IMG/VR virus record: IMGVR_UViG_3300007276_000309
Span: 1-23,800 of that record
DNA: 23,800 nt
Source of the DNA: a virus
Strand: one strand, 5' to 3'
Part shown: positions 5,668-21,368 of the stretch, piece after piece
How positions within the stretch are numbered: the first letter of the stretch is position 1
Layout of the letters: each line of letters opens with the position of its first letter
Program-made: the position numbers and the translations under genes
The notes under the pieces: model-generated
What the model saw: the letters and a program-made list of their open reading frames with translations, nothing else
Databases searched by the model: none
What the model was told of the DNA's origin: nothing

Positions 5668-7179
5668 ATGGCAATTACAAATGGTGATTCGTTGAACAGC
5701 GTGCCTGCAGCACAAAAGCAGACGTTAGCAACGAACTATTTAGACTTAATGTCTAGTACAGGTTGGGGACAGCAATATGTTCCAGACCTAATGGAAAAAG
5801 AGGCTGAAGTTTTCGGCCCAAGAACTATTTCAGGATTTTTAGCGCAAGTTGGAGCTGAAGAGGCTATGACTGCTGATCAAGTTATTTGGTCAGAGCAAGG
5901 TCGTTTACACTTATCTTATACAGGTAATGTAGCTACTGCTGCTGGTGGTATAAACTACGACTCTAATGGAGCTACTTCTCAGGTCGCTATTGAAAACGAC
6001 ATTGACGGTACTTCAGGATTTACAGCTACTGCTCACGGTGTTAGAGTTAACGATACTATTATTGTTTCTAACTCTGACGGTGTTTTCAAATGCTTAGTAG
6101 TTAAAGTTAATGGTGCTACGTTAGACGTCGCTCCTTATAGCAAAGCTAATTTAACTCAAAAGACTGATGCTGATGCAACAACTATCTTAGTTTATGGTTC
6201 TGAGTATGGAAAAGGTTCTTCTTACTTTGGTAACGTTACTACTACTGCTCAAGCTAGCGCTTCAGCAAGAACTGCTAACGAGCCTGATTTTAAAACGTTC
6301 AAGAACAAGCCTATTATCATGAAAGACTACTACGAAGTATCTGGATCAGATTCTTCTCGTATTGGTTGGGTAGAGGTTTCTACTGAAGGCGGACAAGGCG
6401 GATACTTATGGTATTTAAAAGCTGAGTCTGATACTAGAGCTCGTTTCTCTGACTACGTTGAAATGGCGATGCTAGAAGGTGAATTTGGTGTAGCTGCATC
6501 TCTTGCACATGACGTACCTGCTTTAGGCGGTCACGGTGGAGCTGCTGACACTGTAGGTACTGAAGGTTTATTTGCCGCTATCGAAGAAAGAGGTAACTTA
6601 ACTTCAGGTATTACTGGTGTTAACGCTGCTACTGATTTAGCTGAGTTCGATGCTATTTTAGCTGAGTTCGATAAGCAAGGTGCTATTGAAGAAAACATGA
6701 TGTTTGTTAATCGTTCAACTAGCTTGGCTATTGACGATATGCTAGCTTCTATGAATTCTTACGGTGCTGGCGGTACATCTTACGGTGTATTTGACAACTC
6801 TGAAGATATGGCGTTAAACCTAGGCTTTTCTGGTTTCCGTAGAGGATCTTATGACTTCTATAAGTCTGACTTCCGTTACTTAAACGACAAAGCTACTCGT
6901 GGTGGTATTAATGACGCTGCAGGTTCTGCTGCAATTAGAGGTGTTATTATTCCTGCTGGTTCTTCATCTGTTTATGACCAAACTGTTGGTGCTTCTGTTA
7001 AGCGTCCGTTCTTACACGTTCGTTATAGAGCTTCTCAAACTGATGATCGTAGAATGAAGACTTGGACTACTGGTTCGGTTGGAGCTGCTACATCTGCTTT
7101 AGATGCAATGCAACTACACTTCTTAACTGAAAGATGTTTGATCACTCAAGGTGCGAACAACTTTATGTTGATGAAGTAG
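5668..7179 (+). CDS. Major capsid protein (HK97-fold, inferred)
   Basis: The 503-aa product is placed as the main shell subunit. It follows the scaffold candidate, has the usual length, and opens with an N-arm-like helical segment. A GWGQQYVPDLMEKEAEVFGPRT segment at about residues 32-54 resembles major capsid proteins of marine tailed phages. Around residues 122-155 there is a small beta-rich insert (GVRVNDTIIVSNSDG onwards) that could be an insertion domain on the capsid surface. The C-terminal half has the helix and beta content expected of the P and A domains. Codon use differs from neighbours: by my count 10 of 21 Arg codons are CGT, whereas AGA dominates elsewhere, as expected for the most abundant protein. 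A rho-independent terminator follows 11 nt after the stop. The start, ATGGCA, follows an A-rich leader. No cleavage site is obvious. Confidence 0.85.
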   Translation: MAITNGDSLNSVPAAQKQTLATNYLDLMSSTGWGQQYVPDLMEKEAEVFGPRTISGFLAQVGAEEAMTADQVIWSEQGRLHLSYTGNVATAAGGINYDSNGATSQVAIENDIDGTSGFTATAHGVRVNDTIIVSNSDGVFKCLVVKVNGATLDVAPYSKANLTQKTDADATTILVYGSEYGKGSSYFGNVTTTAQASASARTANEPDFKTFKNKPIIMKDYYEVSGSDSSRIGWVEVSTEGGQGGYLWYLKAESDTRARFSDYVEMAMLEGEFGVAASLAHDVPALGGHGGAADTVGTEGLFAAIEERGNLTSGITGVNAATDLAEFDAILAEFDKQGAIEENMMFVNRSTSLAIDDMLASMNSYGAGGTSYGVFDNSEDMALNLGFSGFRRGSYDFYKSDFRYLNDKATRGGINDAAGSAAIRGVIIPAGSSSVYDQTVGASVKRPFLHVRYRASQTDDRRMKTWTTGSVGAATSALDAMQLHFLTERCLITQGANNFMLMK

Positions 7180-7190
7180 AGTATTTTAAG

Positions 7191-7221
7191 CTACCCTGCC
7201 TTCGGGTGGGGTAGTTTTTTT
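7191..7221 (+). terminator. Rho-independent terminator after major capsid gene
   Basis: CTACCCTGCC (7191-7200), a TTCG tetraloop (7201-7204) and GGTGGGGTAG (7205-7214) form a 10-bp stem with two G-U pairs, closed by C-G around the UUCG loop. It is followed at once by seven T (7215-7221). Flanking AAG/TTT can extend the stem by about three pairs. There is no T-tract on the opposite side, so it acts on + strand transcripts. It lies 11 nt after the capsid stop, so it would cap capsid mRNA and reduce transcription of downstream genes. Confidence 0.88.
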
Positions 7222-7245
7222 ATTAATTTTTTATTATATTATATC

Positions 7246-8073
7246 ATGGCAAAAAAAGAAACAAAAAAGGTTGATGTAGCACCTGAAGTGAAAGCTACAA
7301 ACGAAATGGTTGAGGTTGAAGTGAAAACTAAACCTAAACATCAAAAACCAACTTGGGAGATAAAAGACAGAGTTTATAATTTAAAAGGTAGAAAAAGACC
7401 GCTTTCAAGAACTATAAAGTCTGCTGGAATTTACTACTTTGACGAAGCGAAGGGCTACGAGAGAGAGTTAAAATATTGTCAAAATCAAAAAACTCCGTTT
7501 GTAGATGAAATGATTGGAGATCAAAGATTAGAGCATATAACCTTTAGAAACGGAGCGTTGTTTGTTCCTAAAGAAAAAACTACTCTTCAAAAACTTCTAT
7601 CTTTATACCACCCAGATAAAAACAAGCTTTACGCAGAGTATGAACCTGTAAAAGAAGCTGCTAGTGAAATAGAGGTGCTAGAAATGGAGGCTGACGCAAT
7701 ATTAATGGCTAGACAAATGGACATTGAAATGGCAGAAGCTATTATGAGGGTAGAATTAGGATCTCAAGTTAATACGATGAGTTCTAAAGAACTTAAAAGA
7801 GATTTACTGCTATTTGCTCGTAATAACCCTGCTTTGCTCTTAGAACTAGCTTCTGATGAAAATGTTCAGCTTAGAAACTTTGGTATTAAAGCCGTAGAAG
7901 AAGGTATTATTAAAATATCTAGCGATCAACGTAACTTTTTATGGGGATCAACTGATAGAAAAATAATGACCGTACCGTTTGATGAGCATCCATATACAGC
8001 TTTAGCACATTGGTTTAAAACTGATGAAGGTATGGAGATTTATACGAACATAGAAAAACGTTTAAACGCGTAA
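7246..8073 (+). CDS. Conserved head-associated protein of unknown function
   Basis: I recognise the type, but no function is known to me. The 275-aa product starts with about 35 residues rich in K, E and V, probably disordered. A compact middle part follows (IKDRVYNLKGRKRPLSRTI, then a beta-like stretch to FVPKEK near 125). The C-terminal half is helical, with KELKRDLLLFARNNPALLLELA at about 185-206 and then a conserved-looking FDEHPYTALAHWF segment near the end. Similar proteins sit just downstream of the capsid gene in uncultured marine phages, as I recall. A role as head completion, decoration or inner-head protein is inferred from position only. The gene is bracketed by two UUCG hairpins, so it may have its own transcript. 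Its A/T leader resembles that of the scaffold-like gene. Confidence 0.8.
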   Translation: MAKKETKKVDVAPEVKATNEMVEVEVKTKPKHQKPTWEIKDRVYNLKGRKRPLSRTIKSAGIYYFDEAKGYERELKYCQNQKTPFVDEMIGDQRLEHITFRNGALFVPKEKTTLQKLLSLYHPDKNKLYAEYEPVKEAASEIEVLEMEADAILMARQMDIEMAEAIMRVELGSQVNTMSSKELKRDLLLFARNNPALLLELASDENVQLRNFGIKAVEEGIIKISSDQRNFLWGSTDRKIMTVPFDEHPYTALAHWFKTDEGMEIYTNIEKRLNA

Positions 8074-8859: not shown

Positions 8860-10476
8860 ATGGCTTTAATAAATAAAACTGACTTAAACTACTACACAGG
8901 GAGCGAATTAGGTGATTATCAGTTTGTATCACTAGACGACGTTATATCTCAGTTTATGGCTGTTTACGTAGGTGATGAAAAAATAATAAATAAAGTAAGT
9001 AGATCTGACGTGAGTTTTTGGGCTCAAAGAGCTTTAGCTGAGCTTTCTTTTGACACTTTAAAATCTGTTAAGTCTCAGCAAATTGATCTGCCGCCAAGCT
9101 TAACAATGCCACTTCCTAAAGACTATGTAAATTACACTGAGTTGAGTTTCGTAGACAGCTCTGGAGTGAAGCATCCATTGTATCCAACTAAAGATACTTC
9201 AAACCCGTACCAAATTAGTCAAAATGACGATGGCTCTTATGAGTTTCCTGGAGAAGGTGAGCTAGCTTATACTTTTGATTTTAACGAAGGACAAGCTTCA
9301 ATAAGCGCAGCTAGCAATTGGGTTTTGTCATCTCACGCTGTATATTCAGCTACTTTTGGAGGTAAATTAACGAGTACAACTATAGATTCTGAAACAGATC
9401 CAGATAATCCTAGGCTTAAGTTTAGCATAAAACCTAAAAGATCAGCTGTTACTGTTGGTACAGCTCACGGTTATGCTTTGTATTCATATCAAGAAATAAA
9501 CGTAGACGGACTACAGCTACTTCAATTTAGTGGTAATGCAACTACTACTGCAGCAAGAACAACCTCAATAAGTGTTTCGCAAGCAGCTACTACAGGTATC
9601 ACTGGACAAACAAGTGGAACGTTTGATTTACCTGGAACAACAATAAGACTAGGCTTTAGCACTACTCCGCCTGCGCCTGAGATAACTATGCGAGATTACA
9701 TTTTCAACAATCAACAATACGTAGGTCCCGACGGAACAGTTTGGGAAAGAACTTCAAACGCATCTACAGACTTGTTTGATTTAGGGTATTTAGAGTGGAC
9801 TCAAGGTGAATCTGGAATTAAAAATTATGACGAGCAAGCGGTAGACGTAAGTAACGTAGACGGCTCTGTTTACTTAATAGTTTTGTGTATAGCAGATCAC
9901 ACTGATGTAGATACTAACAAAGGTGGATCTAGCTTTATGGCTGAAGAAGCGTTTATAGATGATATAGTCGTAGAAAATATTGTTACAAAAACATCTTTGT
10001 CAGAAACTAATCCGGGTGAGTCTTCAACCTTTACAAACTACAAGCAAGCAAATACTAGTGAAAAAGTTGTAACCGACGACTATATAGATGATATATATTG
10101 GCCTAACGAAGGTGAAAGATACGGTATAGATCCGGTAAGAGCTCAAGTAAATGGTTCTTTCTACATTGATCAAAGATTAGGTAAAATAAACTTTAGCTCT
10201 AACATTTCTGGAAAAACTGTGATCTTAGACTACATAAGTGATAGTCTTGGAACTGATAAAGAAATGCAAGTGCATAAGTTTGCAGAAGAAGCTTTATACA
10301 AGTGGATAACGTACGGCGTTTTATCTACTAAATCTAATGTTCCTGAGATGATAGTAAGACGCGCAAAAAAAGAAAAGTTTGCAGCTACTAGGCAGGCTAA
10401 GCTAAGATTATCAAACGTTAAGTTAGGTGAGATGACCCAAATATTAAGAGGGAAGTCTAAACAAATAAAACACTAG
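8860..10476 (+). CDS. Head-to-tail adaptor / tail tubular-like protein with inserted beta-sandwich
   Basis: The 538-aa protein is a neck adaptor of a type I know from marine phages. Conserved parts are the N-terminal helices (SRSDVSFWAQRALAELSFDT, about 47-66), MPLPKDYVNYTELSFVDSSG (about 85-104), then after a long interval GERYGIDPVRAQVNG (about 418-432), FYIDQRLGKINFSSNISGKT and a basic helical C terminus ending GKSKQIKH. In relatives, as I remember them, the two halves lie close together. Here residues of about 134-393 intervene, rich in S, T, D and aromatics. This stretch reads like a carbohydrate-binding-type beta-sandwich: it starts AYTFDFNEGQ and ends with the strand FIDDIVVEN (365-373). 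The job is to join portal and nozzle; the insert would project from the neck. The gene ends TAG followed by in-frame TAA, directly before the nozzle ATG. Confidence 0.8.
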   Translation: MALINKTDLNYYTGSELGDYQFVSLDDVISQFMAVYVGDEKIINKVSRSDVSFWAQRALAELSFDTLKSVKSQQIDLPPSLTMPLPKDYVNYTELSFVDSSGVKHPLYPTKDTSNPYQISQNDDGSYEFPGEGELAYTFDFNEGQASISAASNWVLSSHAVYSATFGGKLTSTTIDSETDPDNPRLKFSIKPKRSAVTVGTAHGYALYSYQEINVDGLQLLQFSGNATTTAARTTSISVSQAATTGITGQTSGTFDLPGTTIRLGFSTTPPAPEITMRDYIFNNQQYVGPDGTVWERTSNASTDLFDLGYLEWTQGESGIKNYDEQAVDVSNVDGSVYLIVLCIADHTDVDTNKGGSSFMAEEAFIDDIVVENIVTKTSLSETNPGESSTFTNYKQANTSEKVVTDDYIDDIYWPNEGERYGIDPVRAQVNGSFYIDQRLGKINFSSNISGKTVILDYISDSLGTDKEMQVHKFAEEALYKWITYGVLSTKSNVPEMIVRRAKKEKFAATRQAKLRLSNVKLGEMTQILRGKSKQIKH

Positions 10477-10479
10477 TAA

Positions 10480-13400
10480 ATGGCGGAGATCAAAAACACT
10501 TTTAGTCAAGGTAAAATGAACAAAGACCTTGACGAAAGACTTATACCTAATGGACAATATAGAGACGCTTTAAATGTTGAAATAACTTCTGATGGTGAGT
10601 CTGCAGAAACAGGTAGCGCTGGCACAATATCTAACATAAAAGGTAATGTACCTTTAGAGAACGTTGTACCGAGCGATAAGTGTGTTTGTGTAGGAAGTGT
10701 TGCGGATGAAAAGAATAACAAGCTGTATTGGTTTATTAAGTGCGAAGGATTTCCGCAGTCTGGAGACACAGCGTTTCCTAATAGAGACGCTATAATTGAA
10801 TACGATACTGTATCAAAAGAATCTACATTTCTTATTACTGATCTTCGTAGCAAGTTTACAAATTCAGCTGGAAGCACATTAAAGCCTATATTAAATTTTT
10901 CTGGCAAAAAAATAACCGCAATAAATATAATAGATCAGTATTTAATATGGTCTGATGGAGAAACAGAGCCTAAAAAAATAAATATTGAAAAAGCTAGAAA
11001 AGCAACAATTAAGCAAAATAAAGGCACAGGTGGAAGAGGATCTATAGATCACCACTCTTATCTATACGTTGACGGTGTTAATACTGTTCAATATCTACAA
11101 GAAGAAAATATAACTTTAATAAAGAAAAAGCCTTTAATGGCTCCTAGGTACAGTGTTGTTAGTGCTAAAAACGCTCAGTTTGATCCTAAGTTAAACCCAA
11201 CGCCTTTAAAAGAAGCTATATTTGAAAAAATATTTCCTAGGTTTTGCTTAAGATATAAATACCAAGACGGTGAATACTCTGCGTTTGGCCCTTGGACTAA
11301 TGTAATTTTTAACCCTGAATTTGTTGGTGAATATTCTGTTTTAAATGCTTTTACAGCAAAAGAGCCGTACAACAAAGCTATGGTTAACGCTATAAGAACA
11401 ATAAACTTTTATGGTTTAGTTACTCCAGACATGCCTAAAGATGTTGTGCAAATAGACATTCTTTACAAGCAAGAAAATTCTACAGTAGTACACAATGTGG
11501 GTAGTATTAAAAACACAGACCCAGAGTGGTTTGAAGATGGAAGCTGGTTTAAAGATCAAGGTTTAGCAGACTATGACGACTACAACCCTGCAACTAAAGG
11601 TGTATTTATAGTAGACACCGAAAATATACACGCGGCTCTACCTGAAAATCAATTTTTAAGAGTATGGGATGCTGTTCCAAGAAAAGCACAAGCTCAAGAA
11701 ATAACAGGTAATAGATTAGTTTTTGCTAACTATACCGAAGGCTACGACATGGTAGTTGATAACGCGGATTTTAAGCCAAAGATTTTAGGTGACTTTGAGC
11801 CTAGGCAGATTGATGTTGATCTTATTTTTAGAGGCGAAGGAGCTTTTGGAGCCGCGCTAAACACGTCAAGACCTATTTTAGGAAGATGGACAAGTGAACC
11901 TTTAGCAACGCGTGATGGAGAAAGTGGGGGCATTTACAGTTACGTTTCTGCTCCTGTTGCAGATCCGTCATCGCCGCTAATATACAACTATGTTGGCTAT
12001 AGAGGCGCAGGACTGCCTACTATTAAGTCACAGCGAGATTATCAACTAGGTGTTGTTTTTGGGGATAAGTACGGTAGAGAAACACCTGTGTTTACTTCTG
12101 ATTTAGCTACAATTAAAATTCCTTGGGAAGGCACGTATGGAAAATCAGCTAGTACGTCATTATCTATAGCCGCGGCGCTAGGTAACACTCCTCCTAGCTG
12201 GGCTAGTTATTACAAGTTTTACGTAAAACAATCCGCTGGAGAGTACTACAATCTAGCGATGGATAAAATATATAGACCAGCAACATCTTCTCCAGAATTT
12301 GCAAATAGCTTAAATCACGTTTGGGTTTCTTTTGCATCGTCTGATAGAAACAAAGTAGATGTGGGTGAATACATTACTATTAAAAAAATTGTAAATGAAA
12401 ACGCGTTACAAATTGAAAAAGAAAATAAGTACAAAATACTAGACATTTCTAACGAAATGCCAGAGTCTATCGCCTACGAGTTTTATAATTTAGGCACTAG
12501 ATCTAACGTCAGCGATGCTTTAACAGATGATACTGTTGCTGGTGGAAATCCTATTTTTACGGCAGATCCAGGTGCTAATGAAGACGAAAGAATAGATAGA
12601 ACAACTAATACAATTGAAATTTCAAAACCAAACTGGTTAGCTGGCAATGGAGTTCCACTTACTAAAGAGTCAATAGACGATTACACAGAGAGAAATGGCG
12701 ATTTATATATTTCTTGGAGAAGAACTACAACTTTAAGTAGATCTTTTTCTAAAAGGTACAAGGTGACATCTGTAACTTTTCGAAGTGACAAATACATATT
12801 AAAGCTTGCTGAAACAATATCAGAGCAAGACGCTAAGCTAGCCGCTAATAATTCTGACTTGTCGTCGGCTTCATCAAATTTGGGTGGAACTTCAACGTCT
12901 GACACATTAACTTTTCAAGTAGAAAGAAAAGAAAAGAAAACAAAAGAAGCTTTTGATGGTAGGTTTTTTGTTAAAATATCTGCTGACTATATATTACAAC
13001 AGTATTTGCTTAGCGAATTTAAAGAAGAGTTAACCGACTATTATATAAATGGATCTCAAAAATTATTTTACTTAGCCGACGGCGTAACTACTGGTTTTGA
13101 CGCCACGTCTTCTATAGTAAACTCTGAAAATTCTTCTGAGATACAGTCTTATCAAGATGATAGTGATGTTACATCTCCTAGCGATATACACAGCGGGGGA
13201 TCGCTAACAAACATTCAGTCAGAGTGGCAGGCTTTAATAGACGACGAAGACTTTGGTGTAAGGCTAAGCCCTACTAGCACTAGCTCTGCTGGTAACGGTG
13301 GGTTTTTTATAGATGCTATGTATTTTGCCGCGGTTAACAGTGATGATGTTGGTTCTTACGCAAAGTACGCTGGTCAAGGTTGGGCTGGTAATCCAAACGT

Positions 13401-16400
13401 TGAGTATCCTGAAATTGAATGGGGTAGAATAATAGATTATAGAACGAACGACAATGATCTTGCTGGCTCAGATTGGCTAACATCTATTCCACCAACTACT
13501 TACGGTAGAGATTATAATATAGCAGCTAGAAGAGCTAGATATGGCTGGAGAAAAGCTGGCGTTGACGAAACAAACGTTGAAAATTGGATAGAGTCATCTA
13601 GTGCTTCAGGTTATGGCGCAAGTGCTTACAGAGGCAGATGGAGAAATTGGAATCATTCAAACTTTTCTACATGGCAAGTTTTACAAGGCACTTCAGAAAC
13701 AATAGAATCAGACAGAGAGTCTGAAGTAAACGGGTTTGAAGGTGTTTTACAACAAGCTTCTCCGGTACATTATTCTTTACCTTCTGACGGTGGTTATAGA
13801 AACTTTTTATCTAATATATATGGAAAACAGCCTAACGGCAGAACTATATCTAAAAATGTTTATAAATCTACAGTTAACAACGAAACTCCTTCTTACTTAC
13901 ACTTATCTTATTTAGGACCAGGGTACTCAGGCTCGCTTTTTGATAAAACCAAAGTTCCTTCAGACGTTAGTTTGCATGGCGAAAAAGCTTTAGGTCGTTA
14001 TTTAGGTGGAATATGGGGAGGCGGAGCTTTCACAAGTCAAGATGGAACAAACTTTGGACTTTCTAACATAAGGTTTGTTGAGATGGAAGGAACTAATTGG
14101 GACGATAGAATAGCGTACTCTGACAATGGTTCAATATTACCAGACGGCTATGACGAACAAGCTGAGATTAACATGCCTAGCGATAGTACTAGATCGCAAG
14201 CTCCAAAAGCAGGTGCGTCATGGTCTTTTGGTTACGATCAAAGTAAAGCTACAGCGCATAACAATCAATGGAAACCAGGCGGTGATCGCCCTACAAATCC
14301 GCCTGTGTTTGACTTTGCAACTCAAGATTTGCAGCAAGGTGCTCAATTTAGATTTAAAAACGACGATAGTCAAGAGGTGTATACTGTTCTTGAAAAATCT
14401 GAACTTCACGTATATAATCATACTCCTTGGAAAGCAAGAAAAGTATGGAATGGTAACGAATACGTGTGGGGTAACGACAGTGTAGAAGAAGCTGTAGCTG
14501 CTTGGGCAAACACCGCTGACGTTGATGGTCAACCTGATAACAACGGTCAAGAGTTTACAGATATGTTAGACAGGCTAGAAGCGTTTGGCGATAGATCTAA
14601 CAGAAGAACTACCTACGTTTTAGCTTTAGATAAACCTGTACAAACATCTTCGTACAACCCTGTGTTAGGCGCGGACACCACCAATAGTCAAGTAGTTCCT
14701 GATACAACCGCTTTTACTGATATAGAGTTTTTAAGAGAAAACCCTATGGTTTTAACTGGTGAAGTTACTAAAGATCCAGCTATATGGGAGACAGAGCCTA
14801 AGAATAATGATGAACTTGATGTTTATTACGAGGCTTCCAACGCAATACCTACTAAACTCAACAAAGATAATCTTGATTTATTCGCGCCTCAAGGAACTAG
14901 AATAGAGTTTCCTAACATGGACAATAGCGTTATAAAGCACGATTACGACGTTTACCTGCGTAGATGGAATGGTCCAATGTCAAGTTATAACGATGAAGTA
15001 ATAAGGCTAGAGGTAAGAGCTTTAGGTGGTGGTGACACAGGCTTTAAGTGGGAGCAAAACGATGTTAATATAGACTATACAAATCAAGAAATTAGATTTT
15101 ATAGGCAAGACGGTAGTTACACTACGGCTACAACAGCTAATGTTCAAATAGAACAATTTTACGTAGACACAGATAATATGACTGATGGCTCTGGTGACTA
15201 CTGGAAGAGTAAAAATACAGCTGCGTATATATTCTTAAAAAACACTATAGATCCTACAAAACAAGTAGGATTAAACTGGTTTAACGCGTTTACTTTTTCA
15301 GACGGAGTTGAATCTAATAGAATTAGAGACGACTTCAATGAAATGACAATAACTAATGGCGCTAGAGTTTCTACTACTTTAGACGAGCCTTATAGAGAAG
15401 AGGTTAAAGCTAACGGATTAATATATTCTGGCATATACAACTCTAACTCTAAAACAAACAACTTAAACGAGTTTATTGCAGCTGAAAAAATAACAAAAGA
15501 CTTAAATCCTACGTACGGCAGCATACAAAAGCTGTTTTCAAGAAATTCAGACTTAGTTGCTTTTTGTGAAGATAGAGTTGTTAAAATACTAGCCAATAAA
15601 GACGCTGTATTTAATGCTGATGGTAATCCTCAATTAGTAGCTTCAAATAGAGTTCTTGGTCAAGCCACGCCTTTTGCCGGTGACTTTGGTATATCTAAAA
15701 ACCCAGAATCGTTTGCTAAAGATTCTTATAGAGCTTATTTTGCTGACAAACAAAGAGGTGCTGTGCTAAGACTTTCTATGGACGGATTAACACCTATATC
15801 TGAAGCAGGTATGAGCGATTGGTTTAGAGACGAGCTTACTGCCACAGGCATAAACATAATAGGCACGTTTGATGAACACGCTAAAGAATATAATGTAACT
15901 GTTAAAGAGTTAATAGACCCTAACAGAATACAAAACAACACATTTGATTACGGATCTCAAGTTAACACTGTAAATATAGTTAATCCAGAGTTATGTACCA
16001 ATTCTGATTTATCCGGTGGAGCAGAATACACGCCTGTAGATCTTGTTAATGACATATACTATGCTGGACCAACTGCTGATTCTAGTTTAGGTGTAAGCCT
16101 TGGTTTTGACGTGTATAGCAAAGTTCCTATAAGAAACAGATCTTTAGGCTATAAATCTACAGTTAGAAACTGGCCGGCTATAGCAGAGGGATCTATAAGA
16201 TCTTACGTCGCCGCAGTACCTGCTATCTTAGCGGCTAACGCGGAGTACGATACTTACGATCTGCAAAACTATAATATGTCGGGTATTGATACAGTTTACA
16301 AGCTGTTTCATTGGTCGTTTAGAAATACTGATACTAATCCTTTTGACAACCCTACGCCTAATGGGTCAAGATCTACTCTTTCAACTAGCTCAACGTCTAA

Positions 16401-19400
16401 AACAGAGGTAACTTCAGGTTATAATTTAGCAAACAGTTATGGCGCTAGATACATAGGATCTAACGACTCTACTGAGCCAGGACATGATGATGATGGCGTG
16501 AGTGGCGATACTAGCTCTTACACAGATTTACGTTCATACGGCAATAGCACTCAACAGGATTACGATCTTAGAAGTATATTTTACGACTCAGCGGATGCTA
16601 CTAGCACGACTCCATCAACTAGCGCTGACACAATATACACTCAAGAAGGAAATAACTCTGGTATTATATTTGGTAACTGCTACTTTGGTCACGAGCCTAC
16701 TAATGGCGGTGGTTTAGCGGCAGATAGTAAAGAGATGTACATAGAAGTTCCTGGATACCACGAAGAAGATTACGGTAATAGAGTTGCAAGTGATGTGAAG
16801 AACTGGGGCACTGATCCAGACAATCATTTACAAGAAAATTTTGGTACGATGTACAATAACTCAGCGTTTAATAACGAAGAGTTTCATCTAAGTTATAGCA
16901 TATCTAATTCACACGGCGGCGCAACTTATGATCATAAATGGTTTGTTGAAATATGGGCTGACGGTCAGCTTATAGATGACTCGTATTTAGTTGACACTGA
17001 CGCTGAAACAAATACTTTGGCTACAAGTAGTTATAACCCGGGCTTTGTTACTAGTAATACTACTATAACTCCTGCCGCGGGAGCCGTTGGTACGCAAGCT
17101 TCGCCTTCAGGTTACACAGCTCAATTGCAGTTTAAGATACAAGATCCTAACACGTCTGCAGACTCTAGCCATAAAGTGTTTAATCAAATTAAAGTTAGAA
17201 TTGGTATTACAAACTCAGATCAAACAGCAAACTATCCTTCAGATCCAGTTTACGCTATACTACACCAAGTTAAGCTTACTAAAACAAAAAGACTAACACA
17301 TCCTAAAATAACGGAGTATGCAGGTGAGCCAGAAGTTTTAGCTGTTCCAAGTTTAGATAGACCGGCTTGGTCAGAGGTTATTCACGAGCTTCACTATGAA
17401 AATGTATGGAATATTACTGCTGGAACTGGAAATAGATTCTACAAGGCTGAACAAACTTTAGGTGTAGCAAATCCAGGCGGGTGGGTGACTAGTACCGATA
17501 ACAATGGAAACACAGTACAGTGGTATGATTTTGTTGAAGGTAACGATGTTACCGTAAACCCAATTTACGACGATGCTGTTGAGGGCGAAAACTCTTACAC
17601 AGGGGCTGCGCCAGCAGAGTATATAACTACTCCTAACGGTAGTGACTTACCGTCGTTTAATCAATACACTGAGGCTACTAGCGAAGCCGAAGATCCTAAC
17701 CAAATAACGGTGGATACTAGAGGAATACTTATTAATAACAACGGATCTGAAGACGGCAGCTTTTATTTTGCGCAACCGCTAAACAATGACTCAAAATACG
17801 TTGTTGGTAATTGGTATTGTGTTGATGTTTTTCTTGACTCTAGTTATGATAACGTAGCTTTAAATAATCTTTTAATACCTGGCGTGCTAGGTGCAAGTGA
17901 CAGCTTAGATAATGCTTATCAGACAGATCACACGCAAGACAACCCTGATTATCCACCTTATCATTTTGGAAAAGTTGGTGGATCAAGTACCGCGGGCTAC
18001 AGTAAGTCTATAGTGTTAATGCCTGTTATAAACAACGAATGGCCTTTAGGCAATGGAAACGAAGTTTATAGAGCTATATTCCAATATAACGCTACTGAAT
18101 TTGTTCAAGAAGATCAAGGTCAAAACTTTGTGCTGCAAGGCTGGAACGCTAACTGTTTAATTAGAACTATATCTCTGTATGATATAACAGAGCAAGCAAC
18201 TATGGGCAAGCCTACAGGCTGGAACGTTCCTCAAGACGCTTGGGTTAGTGAGCACGCTATGCACGAATTTATAACAGAGCAGACTAATGATAATCTTGAG
18301 CCTGAATGTTACTTTAGACATAACATGCTTTGTTGGAACACTGAAAGAGGTAGTCATGTATATTGGAATAATTACCACTACAACGGTAACGGTCCGCTAG
18401 ACGAAACAGAAGAGTCTTACAATGGATATTTACTTAACTTTACAATAGAAAAAAATCCAGATTTTGTTGAAGAGGAGTTTAATGGCAAGCTTAGAGTTAG
18501 AGTTACTAATAGATGGAATGATCAAACTAATTCTTTAGACGGCGCTTATATTAGAGATATAGATACACCTGGCGACTACTCTATATTAATGAACTTCAAC
18601 TCTATAGATCCAACTATAATTTCTGCGCCTGAAGGATCTGAAGTAAACGCCGTAGCGTTTGCTAATCAAAGTGATTTTGCTCAAGTTGAAAATCATAGAA
18701 GCAAGATAATAGTATTCCCAGAAAACGGTGGTTGCACAGGTGCTTTAAGCAGCTTGTCGCTAATTGACGCTACGCAATACTACGAGGGTGGTGGCGTAGA
18801 TTCCTGGGCTATAACTGGTTACGATAGAACAGCGGCAAACTATATTTCTTGGAATGAAGAAAATTTAAACATTGTGTTTGAAGAAGCGCCAGTTGAACAA
18901 GAAAACTTAACAACTAATATTAGCGAACCTGTTCAAATAGAGCAAAGAGTTAGTAGTATACAGTCAAATTCTAGCGTAAAGTTTGGCTTGACGCTAAGCA
19001 GTTTAGAAGGAAAAATAAGCGCTTATTATTACAATAGTTTTAACAAAGGTTTTAGCGTTACTTACGACTCAAACGGAAGTTATTTAAATATATTTACGTT
19101 AAATGAAAACAGGCCTGCAGGCGCGCTAATAAATACTTTAGTTATAAAAGCCGCACAACAAAACACTTCTTGTGTTGTAGACGATGTAGTTTTAAGTAGA
19201 AGTGCTAACGCTGGATTTAAACCAAAAACTATAAGTTACAGTGAAGATGTTAAAGGTTGGACTAGCTTAAAGTCTTTTTATCCAGAAAGTGGTGTTAGTG
19301 TAGCTAGACAATACTACACGATTAACAATGGTGAATTATGGCAACATCATGCTAATGACGTTAGAAACAACTTTTATGGTCAGCAGTACGACAGTAATAT

Positions 19401-19779
19401 AACTTTAGTTATGAATGCTGATCCTTCTACTATTAAAAACTTTAGAGCTGTTAGTTATGAAGGCAGTCAAGCTAAAATTAACGAAGCTAGTCAACTATTT
19501 TTAGGTGTAAACGAATTAGGAGAAAGTATATACGCTAGCTCAGCAGACAACTACAACTTTTCTTCTAAGCTTGGTTGGTTTGCAGAAAATATTCACACAG
19601 ACATTCAACATGGATCAATAAAAGAGTTTGTAAAAAAAGAAGGCAAATGGTTTAACAACATAAAAGGAAGAAACACAGGTGATTCTGTAACTATGGAGGA
19701 AGTAGGGCAAATAAGCTTTCAAGGCTTAGGTTTTGTTGCTTCTGTTGTAACTAGCGAAGACACTGCGGCTGCAGAATAA
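10480..19779 (+). CDS. Giant tail nozzle / stabilisation-type virion protein with multiple domain insertions
   Basis: At 3,099 aa this gene fills 39% of the window. Core pieces match the tail nozzle/stabilisation (gp10- or gp12-like beta-propeller) proteins of marine phages. They are QGKMNKDLDERLIPNGQYR (9-27); a region around 616-674 with DRNKVDVGEYI and KYKILDISNE; FDGRFFVKI near 823; AIWETEPKNNDELDVYYEAS (1433-1452); a long highly typical block 1620-1820 (SGIYNS, KLFSRNSDLVAF, LANKD, ADKQRGAVLRLSMDGLTPIS, EYNVTV); and the C-terminal part from 2919 (WTSLKSFYPESGVS, FYGQQYDS, then EGKWFNNIKG near the end). In ordinary members the EYNVTV and WTSLKSF elements are close; here about 1,100 residues separate them. 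That insert holds several beta-sandwich-like units. A second extra region lies within 866-1300. No signal peptide, membrane helix or catalytic motif is visible. It probably forms the tail tip and displays the receptor-binding domains. Confidence 0.85.
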   Translation: MAEIKNTFSQGKMNKDLDERLIPNGQYRDALNVEITSDGESAETGSAGTISNIKGNVPLENVVPSDKCVCVGSVADEKNNKLYWFIKCEGFPQSGDTAFPNRDAIIEYDTVSKESTFLITDLRSKFTNSAGSTLKPILNFSGKKITAINIIDQYLIWSDGETEPKKINIEKARKATIKQNKGTGGRGSIDHHSYLYVDGVNTVQYLQEENITLIKKKPLMAPRYSVVSAKNAQFDPKLNPTPLKEAIFEKIFPRFCLRYKYQDGEYSAFGPWTNVIFNPEFVGEYSVLNAFTAKEPYNKAMVNAIRTINFYGLVTPDMPKDVVQIDILYKQENSTVVHNVGSIKNTDPEWFEDGSWFKDQGLADYDDYNPATKGVFIVDTENIHAALPENQFLRVWDAVPRKAQAQEITGNRLVFANYTEGYDMVVDNADFKPKILGDFEPRQIDVDLIFRGEGAFGAALNTSRPILGRWTSEPLATRDGESGGIYSYVSAPVADPSSPLIYNYVGYRGAGLPTIKSQRDYQLGVVFGDKYGRETPVFTSDLATIKIPWEGTYGKSASTSLSIAAALGNTPPSWASYYKFYVKQSAGEYYNLAMDKIYRPATSSPEFANSLNHVWVSFASSDRNKVDVGEYITIKKIVNENALQIEKENKYKILDISNEMPESIAYEFYNLGTRSNVSDALTDDTVAGGNPIFTADPGANEDERIDRTTNTIEISKPNWLAGNGVPLTKESIDDYTERNGDLYISWRRTTTLSRSFSKRYKVTSVTFRSDKYILKLAETISEQDAKLAANNSDLSSASSNLGGTSTSDTLTFQVERKEKKTKEAFDGRFFVKISADYILQQYLLSEFKEELTDYYINGSQKLFYLADGVTTGFDATSSIVNSENSSEIQSYQDDSDVTSPSDIHSGGSLTNIQSEWQALIDDEDFGVRLSPTSTSSAGNGGFFIDAMYFAAVNSDDVGSYAKYAGQGWAGNPNVEYPEIEWGRIIDYRTNDNDLAGSDWLTSIPPTTYGRDYNIAARRARYGWRKAGVDETNVENWIESSSASGYGASAYRGRWRNWNHSNFSTWQVLQGTSETIESDRESEVNGFEGVLQQASPVHYSLPSDGGYRNFLSNIYGKQPNGRTISKNVYKSTVNNETPSYLHLSYLGPGYSGSLFDKTKVPSDVSLHGEKALGRYLGGIWGGGAFTSQDGTNFGLSNIRFVEMEGTNWDDRIAYSDNGSILPDGYDEQAEINMPSDSTRSQAPKAGASWSFGYDQSKATAHNNQWKPGGDRPTNPPVFDFATQDLQQGAQFRFKNDDSQEVYTVLEKSELHVYNHTPWKARKVWNGNEYVWGNDSVEEAVAAWANTADVDGQPDNNGQEFTDMLDRLEAFGDRSNRRTTYVLALDKPVQTSSYNPVLGADTTNSQVVPDTTAFTDIEFLRENPMVLTGEVTKDPAIWETEPKNNDELDVYYEASNAIPTKLNKDNLDLFAPQGTRIEFPNMDNSVIKHDYDVYLRRWNGPMSSYNDEVIRLEVRALGGGDTGFKWEQNDVNIDYTNQEIRFYRQDGSYTTATTANVQIEQFYVDTDNMTDGSGDYWKSKNTAAYIFLKNTIDPTKQVGLNWFNAFTFSDGVESNRIRDDFNEMTITNGARVSTTLDEPYREEVKANGLIYSGIYNSNSKTNNLNEFIAAEKITKDLNPTYGSIQKLFSRNSDLVAFCEDRVVKILANKDAVFNADGNPQLVASNRVLGQATPFAGDFGISKNPESFAKDSYRAYFADKQRGAVLRLSMDGLTPISEAGMSDWFRDELTATGINIIGTFDEHAKEYNVTVKELIDPNRIQNNTFDYGSQVNTVNIVNPELCTNSDLSGGAEYTPVDLVNDIYYAGPTADSSLGVSLGFDVYSKVPIRNRSLGYKSTVRNWPAIAEGSIRSYVAAVPAILAANAEYDTYDLQNYNMSGIDTVYKLFHWSFRNTDTNPFDNPTPNGSRSTLSTSSTSKTEVTSGYNLANSYGARYIGSNDSTEPGHDDDGVSGDTSSYTDLRSYGNSTQQDYDLRSIFYDSADATSTTPSTSADTIYTQEGNNSGIIFGNCYFGHEPTNGGGLAADSKEMYIEVPGYHEEDYGNRVASDVKNWGTDPDNHLQENFGTMYNNSAFNNEEFHLSYSISNSHGGATYDHKWFVEIWADGQLIDDSYLVDTDAETNTLATSSYNPGFVTSNTTITPAAGAVGTQASPSGYTAQLQFKIQDPNTSADSSHKVFNQIKVRIGITNSDQTANYPSDPVYAILHQVKLTKTKRLTHPKITEYAGEPEVLAVPSLDRPAWSEVIHELHYENVWNITAGTGNRFYKAEQTLGVANPGGWVTSTDNNGNTVQWYDFVEGNDVTVNPIYDDAVEGENSYTGAAPAEYITTPNGSDLPSFNQYTEATSEAEDPNQITVDTRGILINNNGSEDGSFYFAQPLNNDSKYVVGNWYCVDVFLDSSYDNVALNNLLIPGVLGASDSLDNAYQTDHTQDNPDYPPYHFGKVGGSSTAGYSKSIVLMPVINNEWPLGNGNEVYRAIFQYNATEFVQEDQGQNFVLQGWNANCLIRTISLYDITEQATMGKPTGWNVPQDAWVSEHAMHEFITEQTNDNLEPECYFRHNMLCWNTERGSHVYWNNYHYNGNGPLDETEESYNGYLLNFTIEKNPDFVEEEFNGKLRVRVTNRWNDQTNSLDGAYIRDIDTPGDYSILMNFNSIDPTIISAPEGSEVNAVAFANQSDFAQVENHRSKIIVFPENGGCTGALSSLSLIDATQYYEGGGVDSWAITGYDRTAANYISWNEENLNIVFEEAPVEQENLTTNISEPVQIEQRVSSIQSNSSVKFGLTLSSLEGKISAYYYNSFNKGFSVTYDSNGSYLNIFTLNENRPAGALINTLVIKAAQQNTSCVVDDVVLSRSANAGFKPKTISYSEDVKGWTSLKSFYPESGVSVARQYYTINNGELWQHHANDVRNNFYGQQYDSNITLVMNADPSTIKNFRAVSYEGSQAKINEASQLFLGVNELGESIYASSADNYNFSSKLGWFAENIHTDIQHGSIKEFVKKEGKWFNNIKGRNTGDSVTMEEVGQISFQGLGFVASVVTSEDTAAAE

Positions 19780-19794
19780 TTTAAAAACAATTAA

Positions 19795-21024
19795 ATGGCT
19801 ATAATAAACGAAATACAAATAAACACTGAAGATATACCAGCAGGAGGTGCAACTAGGTATTTTAGCATAACTGGAGAAGAAGGAGCTCAGTTTATGCTTC
19901 AAGCCGTCACATCTGAAGGTGTTTTTTACAATTTTGTTACAAAAAAATTTACAGCAAGCGAAGGTTTTAATTCAAACCACAATAAAGTTGTAACCATGAG
20001 TGGTCAGTTCAACTCATCTATTCATTTTCCAAGTGGACTTACTACAACTTATAGCGTTATTTTATTAGCAAATGGTTTTGACACAACTATTAATAATGAC
20101 AGTAGAAAAGTAAGTGTTAAAAAAATTACACAAAATAGTCAAACAACGCTTACATTTGCTTTTGCTACAGATAATTCAAGTAAATACAGCTCTAGCCCAG
20201 CCGCAGCAAACGTTACATCTAGTGGAACACCAGGAGTGGCTACAAGTGTAGTTGTAAGTAATACTAGCACAGTAACAAACGCTGACAACGATACTCATGG
20301 TAGTGGGTTTGCTGTTTTAAAGTGGAATAAAGACACAGTACAGTATAATGGTGACAACATGTGGTATTATCAAAAAACAGCTACAGTAAACGGAGCTAGC
20401 TCTACCGACGTGTTAACATTAGATAGCGTCGATGAAATTGCAATAGGGTCTCAAATAACTTATATTACAGGCACAACCGCCCCTGGAGCAACAACAATTG
20501 TGAAGAGCATAGACACTACTGCAAAAACGCTAACATTGTCTAGAGCTCAAGCTTTTAGCGACGGTGCTACGGTAACTATAAGATCTTATGGCGCGTCTTT
20601 AATAAATAGTGTTGCTGGCGCTAGCGTTAGCTTTCCCGCAGTTGTAGCTATTAAAACTAGTAGTACAAACAAAAGGTACACTACCAACGGAACCACCACT
20701 ACAAGTAACACTATAAACTTGAACGGATCGCGAGGATTAGGTAAAGGCGCTATAATTTCAGGTACAGGAATAAATAGATCAAACTCTGGTGATGTTATAC
20801 ACTCTGTTAGTCTTAGCGCTAGCGGTGGAAGTATAGTTGTAGGAGATAATGACGCTGGTACATCTGGAGATCTTCAAACTTTACCGGACAAGCTTACAAT
20901 TGATACAGACTCTATTATCACTATAGATGTTCATTTTAAAACGGAAGTAAATAGTTATCCATCAACCAACAAAACGATAAACTTAGATTTAGATAAAATA
21001 TTAACTCCATTAGCAACATCATGA
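19795..21024 (+). CDS. Beta-rich virion structural protein
   Basis: The 409-aa product belongs to a beta-rich family I recall from marine phage structural modules. The N-terminal domain (about 1-140) has GGATRYFSITGEEGAQFML, FYNFVTKKF and an FPSGLTTTYSVILLA strand pattern, suggesting a beta-sandwich. After a Ser/Thr/Ala-rich linker (about 141-165) come two module-like stretches. The first (about 203-265) reads LTLDSVDEIAIGSQITYITGT, then VKSIDTTAKTLTLS and DGATVTIRSYG. The second (about 300-370) repeats the same order in degenerate form (TINLNGSRGLGKGAIISGTGI, then SVSLSASGGSIVVG). Such modules usually form small beta-barrels on virion surfaces. Role at the tail or as an appendage is inferred. 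The gene's TGA overlaps the next ATG (ATGA), so the two are probably translationally coupled. No enzyme motif is seen. Confidence 0.78.
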   Translation: MAIINEIQINTEDIPAGGATRYFSITGEEGAQFMLQAVTSEGVFYNFVTKKFTASEGFNSNHNKVVTMSGQFNSSIHFPSGLTTTYSVILLANGFDTTINNDSRKVSVKKITQNSQTTLTFAFATDNSSKYSSSPAAANVTSSGTPGVATSVVVSNTSTVTNADNDTHGSGFAVLKWNKDTVQYNGDNMWYYQKTATVNGASSTDVLTLDSVDEIAIGSQITYITGTTAPGATTIVKSIDTTAKTLTLSRAQAFSDGATVTIRSYGASLINSVAGASVSFPAVVAIKTSSTNKRYTTNGTTTTSNTINLNGSRGLGKGAIISGTGINRSNSGDVIHSVSLSASGGSIVVGDNDAGTSGDLQTLPDKLTIDTDSIITIDVHFKTEVNSYPSTNKTINLDLDKILTPLATS

Positions 21025-21368
21025 CAATAAATTTATATTCAGCAATACAAAATAGTTCTATATCTGTTGGTGATGTAGTATACGCCTCGCAAAACGAGTC
21101 TACAAAAAATGGCATAAAATATTACGGGCAAAATGGAAGCTTTCCTCAAAAAATAGGCAAAATAACAGAAATAGGATCTGATTATATAAAAGTGCAAGAA
21201 GGATCTAGTGTTCCGCCGGTGGACGCTTTTTTAATGTTTTCTAAAGACAACTCTGTTAACGAGGCTAGCTTAAAAGGCTATTACGCTAGTATCACAATGA
21301 AAAACGAATCTACAGATAGAGTAGAGCTTTTCGCTGTTAACGCTGTAGTTCACGAAAGTAGTAAATAG
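21021..21368 (+). CDS. Small beta-barrel virion protein
   Basis: The 115-aa product overlaps the previous gene by 4 nt (ATGA), which points to coupled translation and a joint role. It has a SVGDVVYASQ strand, then KYYGQNGSFPQKIGKITEIG and YIKVQEG, which look like a small SH3-like barrel. The second half (FLMFSKDNSVNEASLKGYYASITM, then ELFAVNAVVHESSK) matches a signature I associate with small conserved virion proteins of marine phages, which often end in an ELF...SSK pattern. The exact function is unknown to me. It has no signal peptide, cysteines or enzyme motif. Confidence 0.75.
   Translation: MTINLYSAIQNSSISVGDVVYASQNESTKNGIKYYGQNGSFPQKIGKITEIGSDYIKVQEGSSVPPVDAFLMFSKDNSVNEASLKGYYASITMKNESTDRVELFAVNAVVHESSK

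Follow-up and report, generated by a model that had tools for sequence, protein, structure and literature searches.

Few proteins of crassviruses are as well conserved as the muzzle (nozzle) protein, which serves as the ejection gate of the tail. In phi-crAss001 it is gp44 (1,371 amino acids (aa); PDB 7QOK/7QOL), whose IG2 region (residues 318-1021) includes the crass domain (453-904 and 940-1012); contact with the cell has been proposed for this domain, and the known variation of muzzle length has been placed in the crass and IG2 regions by Bayfield et al. (PMC10172136). In the nozzle of Escherichia phage SU10, a seven-bladed propeller has a string of four immunoglobulin (Ig)-like beta-sandwich domains inserted between its blades (PMC9509320), and both length variation and domain strings are therefore already known for this class of protein. 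Here we describe a stretch of DNA of 23,800 nucleotides from a marine phage (IMG/VR record IMGVR_UViG_3300007276_000309, positions 1 to 23,800; hereafter the window), in which a crassvirus-type muzzle of 3,099 residues has one contiguous insertion of 1,107 residues in a single propeller hairpin. Though the muzzle is so conserved, more than 1,000 residues have been gained, lost and exchanged at this one hairpin, and in other relatives the muzzle gene is cut there. In the open-access literature, most subscription papers being outside the search, we found no description of the insert site, of its repeated emptying or of a gene split at the same hairpin.

A contiguous insertion in a crassvirus-type muzzle

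The muzzle gene is an uninterrupted open reading frame (ORF) and follows terminase, portal and other virion genes in the window. It matches phrog_14478 (E 1e-122), and the Pfam domain PF25729 (crAss_MUZ_C) is found on residues 2961-3062 with 35.1 bits against a cut-off of 27. A profile of compact relatives matched phi-crAss001 gp44 with the propeller included (hhalign 96.6%, E 6.6e-10); the N-terminal motif, the interrupted propeller and the C-terminal part are common to both proteins. For the fold, an AlphaFold2 (AF2) model was made of the complete compact muzzle core of the relative L046 (residues 1-1172), and its best PDB matches were two phi-crAss001 muzzle chains, 7qok_A and 7qol_P (E 2.8e-25), with SU10 nozzle chains also among the matches. 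These results bear out the nozzle identity proposed in an original prediction, which had been made from the nucleotide sequence without database searches. The parts of the gene are as follows.

10480-19779, plus strand: tail muzzle (nozzle) protein of crassvirus type, 3,099 aa, identified by phrog_14478, PF25729, the gp44 profile and the L046 model
10480-11751, plus strand: residues 1-424, the N-terminal part (MNKDLDER...GNRLVFANY), conserved and found in every relative with near-constant spacing
12280-15159, plus strand: residues 601-1560, putative equivalent of the IG2/crass domain from the gp44 alignment and identities, poorly conserved and length-variable
15199-15903, plus strand: residues 1574-1808, most conserved propeller block by identity to relatives, with EYNVTV as its last strand
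15904-19224, plus strand: residues 1809-2915, the insertion, in the b-c hairpin of one propeller blade, from anchor spacing and the hairpin in the L046 AF2 model
19225-19776, plus strand: residues 2916-3099, with KTISYSE (second hairpin strand), GWTSLKSF, the last blade and the MUZ_C domain, from Pfam and the gp44 alignment

A scan of viral contigs yielded 80 muzzle relatives, and the insert length was measured, between profile anchors on either side, as the spacing from EYNVTV to KTISYSE..GWTSLKSF. EYNVTV occupies residues 1803-1808, at the end of a propeller block whose identity reaches 55-59% even with distant relatives, and W2927 lies within KTISYSEDVKGWTSLKSF (residues 2916-2933). The spacing is 1,107 residues in the window and 2-39 in 13 compact muzzles, while 28 insert carriers, window included, have 583-1,442 residues at this site. 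Two compact muzzles are known from cultured phages, namely gp97 of Cellulophaga phage phi38:1 (5 residues) and gp25 of Flavobacterium phage elemoA_7-9A (20 residues), both of which have the same gene order and conserved blocks as the window. Since the neighbouring conserved spacings barely vary (30, 12 and about 4 before the site and 14-39 after it), the insertion is discrete and occurs at one place. The single block of about 1,100 residues and its variability among relatives had been predicted correctly; the predicted limits, 15928-19233, started about eight residues late and ended three residues late, and of the two flanking motifs the tryptophan of W-x-S-x-KSF was where it had been placed whereas EYNVTV had been put at about residue 1812.

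In the L046 model, strands 971-976 and 981-986 are joined by a tight loop (977-980), which is the insert site; they belong to a four-stranded blade (961-966, 971-976, 981-986 and 991-996) with a local predicted local distance difference test score (pLDDT) of 76-83; by our count this would be blade 6. The gp44 profile aligns through the site, which falls near residue 1197 beyond the IG2 region, and gp44 differs from the window protein in having no spare residues there (..NDVYFTYKD followed directly by HCLCYSE..). As judged from this alignment, the site is not in the muzzle regions for which length variation has been reported.

The same insert is present with 84% identity in an independent contig, L085, and 26 further distinct relatives have an insert. 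Between the window and L085, the ratio of nonsynonymous to synonymous substitution (dN/dS) is about 0.20 for the insert and 0.05-0.15 for the muzzle core, so that by this measure the insert is under purifying selection. A chance or assembly artefact is ruled out by the L085 contig, the other 26 carriers and the dN/dS value. Among 50,697 phage records searched at E 0.1, no cultured phage with the insert was found. A degenerate-pattern scan from the insert alignment failed because the alignment was too divergent, and a scan with the single sequence matched L085 only.

Gain, loss and division at one hairpin

On a portal tree the presence of the insert needs nine changes, at least seven of them forced. 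In the pairs L006/L010 and L023/L033, whose portals are 92-95% identical, one phage has the insert and the other does not. This pattern is partly exchange of whole muzzle genes. A muzzle-core tree rooted with compact muzzles needs three changes, each of which is forced by starred branches: a single gain, and two losses that are both clean (L006 with L007, and L023). The approximately unbiased (AU) test rejected a single clade of insert carriers (p 8e-14). Natural pairs of empty and filled muzzles with nearly identical portals are thus open to comparison.

The inserts themselves vary in composition, and L019 is without the first half. Between the window and L085, the synonymous divergence (dS) is 0.44 over residues 1813-1935, 0.18-0.26 over 1936-2305 and 0.5-0.85 over most of what remains of the insert, with 0.57-1.12 over the muzzle core; since dS differs between segments, pieces of the insert seem to recombine. 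The low value at 16285-17394 of the window is two- to five-fold below that of most flanking parts of the gene, which suggests that this segment of the insert was recently exchanged. No reverse transcriptase of a diversity-generating retroelement was found in 15 related records.

Thirteen related loci have a muzzle gene that is divided exactly at the insert hairpin. The first ORF extends 108-1,284 residues beyond the hairpin site, and the second mostly begins 2-14 residues ahead of TITYDE..GWTSFHS, or about 80 codons ahead in L037, L040 and L041. The two ORFs have a stop-start overlap in some loci, and one to three other genes intervene in others. In this type the last blade is a gene of its own and other domains finish the first chain. 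These payloads gave no match to the profiles of the window insert domains. In L068 the payload has a bacterial Ig domain, and the first chains at L037:13247-17074 and L041:13697-15238 run into long thrombospondin type 3 (calcium-binding) repeats.

The division is also found in a cultured phage, Cellulophaga phage phi13:2 (gp120 of 1,613 aa and gp121; L102:4156-8997 and 9001-9726), as well as in phi18:3, phi19:3 and phi46:3 (MW202828.1). As in the window, there are extra domains at the same hairpin, about 500 residues in gp120; in phi13:2, however, the gene is cut at the hairpin, whereas the window gene is continuous there. gp121 begins MPKTITYSEKNKGWTSF, and the structural annotation of both proteins comes from similarity to phage phi8:3. 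Eight other relatives have 266-1,317 residues after the last blade, past the C-terminal end of compact muzzles, rather than at the hairpin.

We lean slightly towards a general reading of these data, in which the hairpin would be a socket in crassvirus-like phages of marine Bacteroidota that can be empty, filled with a string of domains in frame, or cut. In the cut state the second polypeptide would close the propeller, and unrelated domains such as thrombospondin type 3 repeats or bacterial Ig domains would end the first chain. The muzzle end would likewise be detachable, and the tail gate would be a multi-chain assembly of exchangeable parts, with functional two-chain muzzles in cultured phages such as phi13:2. 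Host-contact parts seem to have a natural socket in the hairpin loop, which provides a precise, testable site for such modules in Bacteroidota phages. If the reading is correct, cultured Cellulophaga phages hold a two-chain propeller in the tail gate that is accessible to direct structural study by cryo-electron microscopy.

Muzzle genes are also divided at other places. In L078 (9998-11905 and 11898-16319) two adjacent ORFs meet between the equivalents of window residues 424 and 514, and in Maribacter phage Panino (L103:3816-6656 and 6767-7729) the muzzle is broken within an earlier propeller block, its ORFs being about 110 bases apart; this may be an intron, a frameshift or an annotation error.

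Domains of the insert and its possible function

For the insert, an AF2 model was made of residues 1781-2970 from 26 sequences (mean pLDDT 61; predicted template modelling score (pTM) 0.39), and the following segments were recognized.

15916-16284, plus strand: N1, residues 1813-1935, conserved among carriers, from a profile that matches insert carriers only
16285-16779, plus strand: residues 1936-2100, fast-changing low-confidence stretch, pLDDT about 30 over much of it, dN/dS 0.39
16780-17394, plus strand: D1, residues 2101-2305, predicted beta-sandwich unit, from AF2 strands and profile
17395-18192, plus strand: D2, residues 2306-2571, predicted beta-sandwich unit, from AF2 strands and profile
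18193-18774, plus strand: D3, residues 2572-2765, predicted beta-sandwich unit, moderate to high AF2 confidence, homologue of D4
18775-19203, plus strand: D4, residues 2766-2908, predicted beta-sandwich unit, pLDDT 71-95, homologue of D3

The model shows the chain of beta-sandwich units that had been predicted. The proposed limits 2305-2571, 2575-2765 and 2766-2908 are close to the AF2 blocks, while the first unit is shifted from 2083-2273 to about 2101-2305. Confidence is low at about residues 1908-2065, and the strand blocks are best modelled over D3 and D4. The homology of these two units (hhalign 96.8%, E 2.4e-10; 0.1% in the reversed-profile control) identifies them, at the level of sequence, as duplicates. 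The top PDB matches of the insert model by Foldseek were multi-domain chains, many with carbohydrate-binding module (CBM)-like or galactose-binding-like modules, and local matches include EngBF/GH101, Cry1A, Vip3, the CBM32 of AlyQ, SGBP-B and xylanase J. The insert differs from EngBF, GH101, Cry1A, Vip3 and AlyQ CBM32 in that it has no sequence similarity to them and no catalytic domain, and superposition of the whole model is poor. Against viral models, Foldseek gave multi-domain matches of low TM score and no clear homologue. The strand blocks and the local Foldseek matches agree with each other and suggest a beta-sandwich (jelly-roll) fold, and the units are probably domains of sugar-binding type. 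No CBM family model of Pfam matched the window insert, and GalBD_like was matched in one of 26 relatives (E 0.009).

In four-stranded propellers, b-c hairpins and blade-to-blade loops share one face. The IG1 domain of phi-crAss001 leaves a loop between blades 2 and 3 and lies below the propeller. Since the insert hairpin shares its face with this loop, we infer that the insert would point distally, towards the host, and lie next to the crass domain.

Taken as a whole, the best explanation, to which we give a probability of roughly 0.6, is a muzzle in which the b-c hairpin of one propeller blade can hold a cassette of beta-sandwich domains in tandem; this facultative cassette would be exposed distally next to the crass domain and used for accessory binding of host glycans. 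With a hexameric muzzle like that of phi-crAss001, the six copies of the insert would add about 0.7 MDa of surface modules. The most likely role is binding, driven by avidity, to surface glycans or capsule of a presumed Bacteroidota host; in addition to separate tail fibres, it would hold the muzzle close to the outer membrane up to the opening of the gate. It is plausible that the insert units bind receptors or glycans, and glycan binding, as inferred from the fold class, is the best reading. Several points weigh against this explanation. By sequence searches the window insert has no Pfam or PHROG family match and no useful PDB chain match, and no binding-site residues were identified in it. 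The pLDDT of 61 and pTM of 0.39 make whole-model TM scores meaningless, so that the fold class depends on local similarity. The clean losses mean that the insert is dispensable, and its distal placement comes from reasoning on propeller geometry and not from a hexamer model.

The domain string might instead be a spacer or a rearranging sleeve that takes the tail tip through the capsule, with any sugar binding incidental. The four inserted Ig-like domains of the SU10 nozzle straighten on infection and lengthen the tail (PMC9509320), SU10 chains are among the PDB matches of the core model, and the number and length of the units differ by hundreds of residues. Such a mechanical role is nevertheless unlikely, since the SU10 domains are between blades 2 and 3 and not at the b-c hairpin, clean loss in close relatives would be odd for a required moving part, and the best fold matches are modules of sugar-binding type. 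SU10 also offers a precedent for a docking platform, because its short fibres attach to a loop grown from a propeller blade of the nozzle (PMC9509320), and separate tail-fibre genes occur in an insert carrier; fibre or accessory proteins could then attach to an insert that does not itself bind the host. We consider this quite improbable, as the insert is far larger than a dock loop, compact relatives share the same neighbouring genes, and the fibres of phi-crAss001 dock on hub proteins at rings 1-2 and not on the muzzle (PMC10172136).

It had also been proposed that the insert may replace tail-fibre genes, none of which is seen in the window; the insert would then be the sole receptor-binding device of the phage. 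This proposal was not supported, and its chance is very small. The window is a fragment that ends about 4 kb past the muzzle, and absence of a fibre gene from it therefore means nothing. In the near-complete 66-kb contig of the insert carrier L017, a tail-fibre protein is encoded separately, some 20 kb past the muzzle (L088:8301-9641, phrog_5668, E 1.5e-26). Since the compact muzzles of L006 and L007 are followed by the same downstream genes as in the window, nothing nearby compensates for presence or absence of the insert. The window insert, which is internal to the muzzle chain, has no match to a tail-fibre PHROG. Clean presence or absence at one site is also typical of introns and inteins, in which crass-like phages are rich (PMC7886860), but a selfish element of this kind, with no role in the virion, is hardly credible. 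No Hint or endonuclease domain was found by Pfam, neither end has intein junction residues (..VKELID at the first junction, and ANAGFKP before KTIS at the second), no Rfam intron is present in the window or in seven split-type loci, and both purifying selection and the very different insert lengths of the 28 carriers speak against it. The lack of a Hint domain and of Rfam introns led us to reject the intein and intron candidates.

Neighbouring genes

Three neighbouring genes of the window are related to the muzzle or stand next to it.

8860-10476, plus strand: virion structural protein encoded just upstream of the muzzle, itself with an insertion at about residues 130-400, from length comparison
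19795-21024, plus strand: 409-aa protein between the muzzle and its detached C-terminal piece, position conserved in relatives
21021-21368, plus strand: 115-aa gene, the detached last about 100 residues of the muzzle, from family matches, including phrog_18548 positions 139-236

The expectation that the typical core resumes to the C terminus after the insert holds for the MUZ_C domain, but the last about 100 residues are encoded by the separate gene 21021-21368. Its family is the muzzle C terminus in phi38:1 gp97, elemoA gp25, Gundel gp60 and phi13:2 gp121 (E 2e-26 to 4e-15); it is a separate gene in the group of the window, and is fused in the compact phi38:1 and elemoA_7-9A muzzles and also in the second ORFs of the split type. 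Homology of the 115-aa family to the very end of phi-crAss001 gp44 was not significant. These matches suggest that phrog_18548 and phrog_38031 are C-terminal parts of split muzzles and that the 115-aa family is the detached muzzle end, of which phrog_18548 is the fused form. Because its C-terminal end is a separate gene, the window muzzle probably works as more than one chain.

The 409-aa protein has no Pfam or PHROG match. Its position is kept in relatives, but identity is 27-46% between pairs with very similar portals.

The upstream protein encoded at 8860-10476 falls by profile comparison in a virion structural family; a comparison with the ring protein gp43 did not establish similarity. 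It has 283-308 aa without the insertion in phi38:1, elemoA and split-type relatives and 468-745 aa in insert carriers; in the window the insertion is about 260 residues. Comparison of this insertion with D3/D4 gave a weak result (hhalign 2.5%). The counterpart in L070 has a D4-like domain (profile match E 7e-5). In a relative of the phage of the window, L087:9124-10950 encodes a 608-aa protein with a C-terminal Por_Secre_tail domain (type IX secretion sorting; E 9.9e-8).

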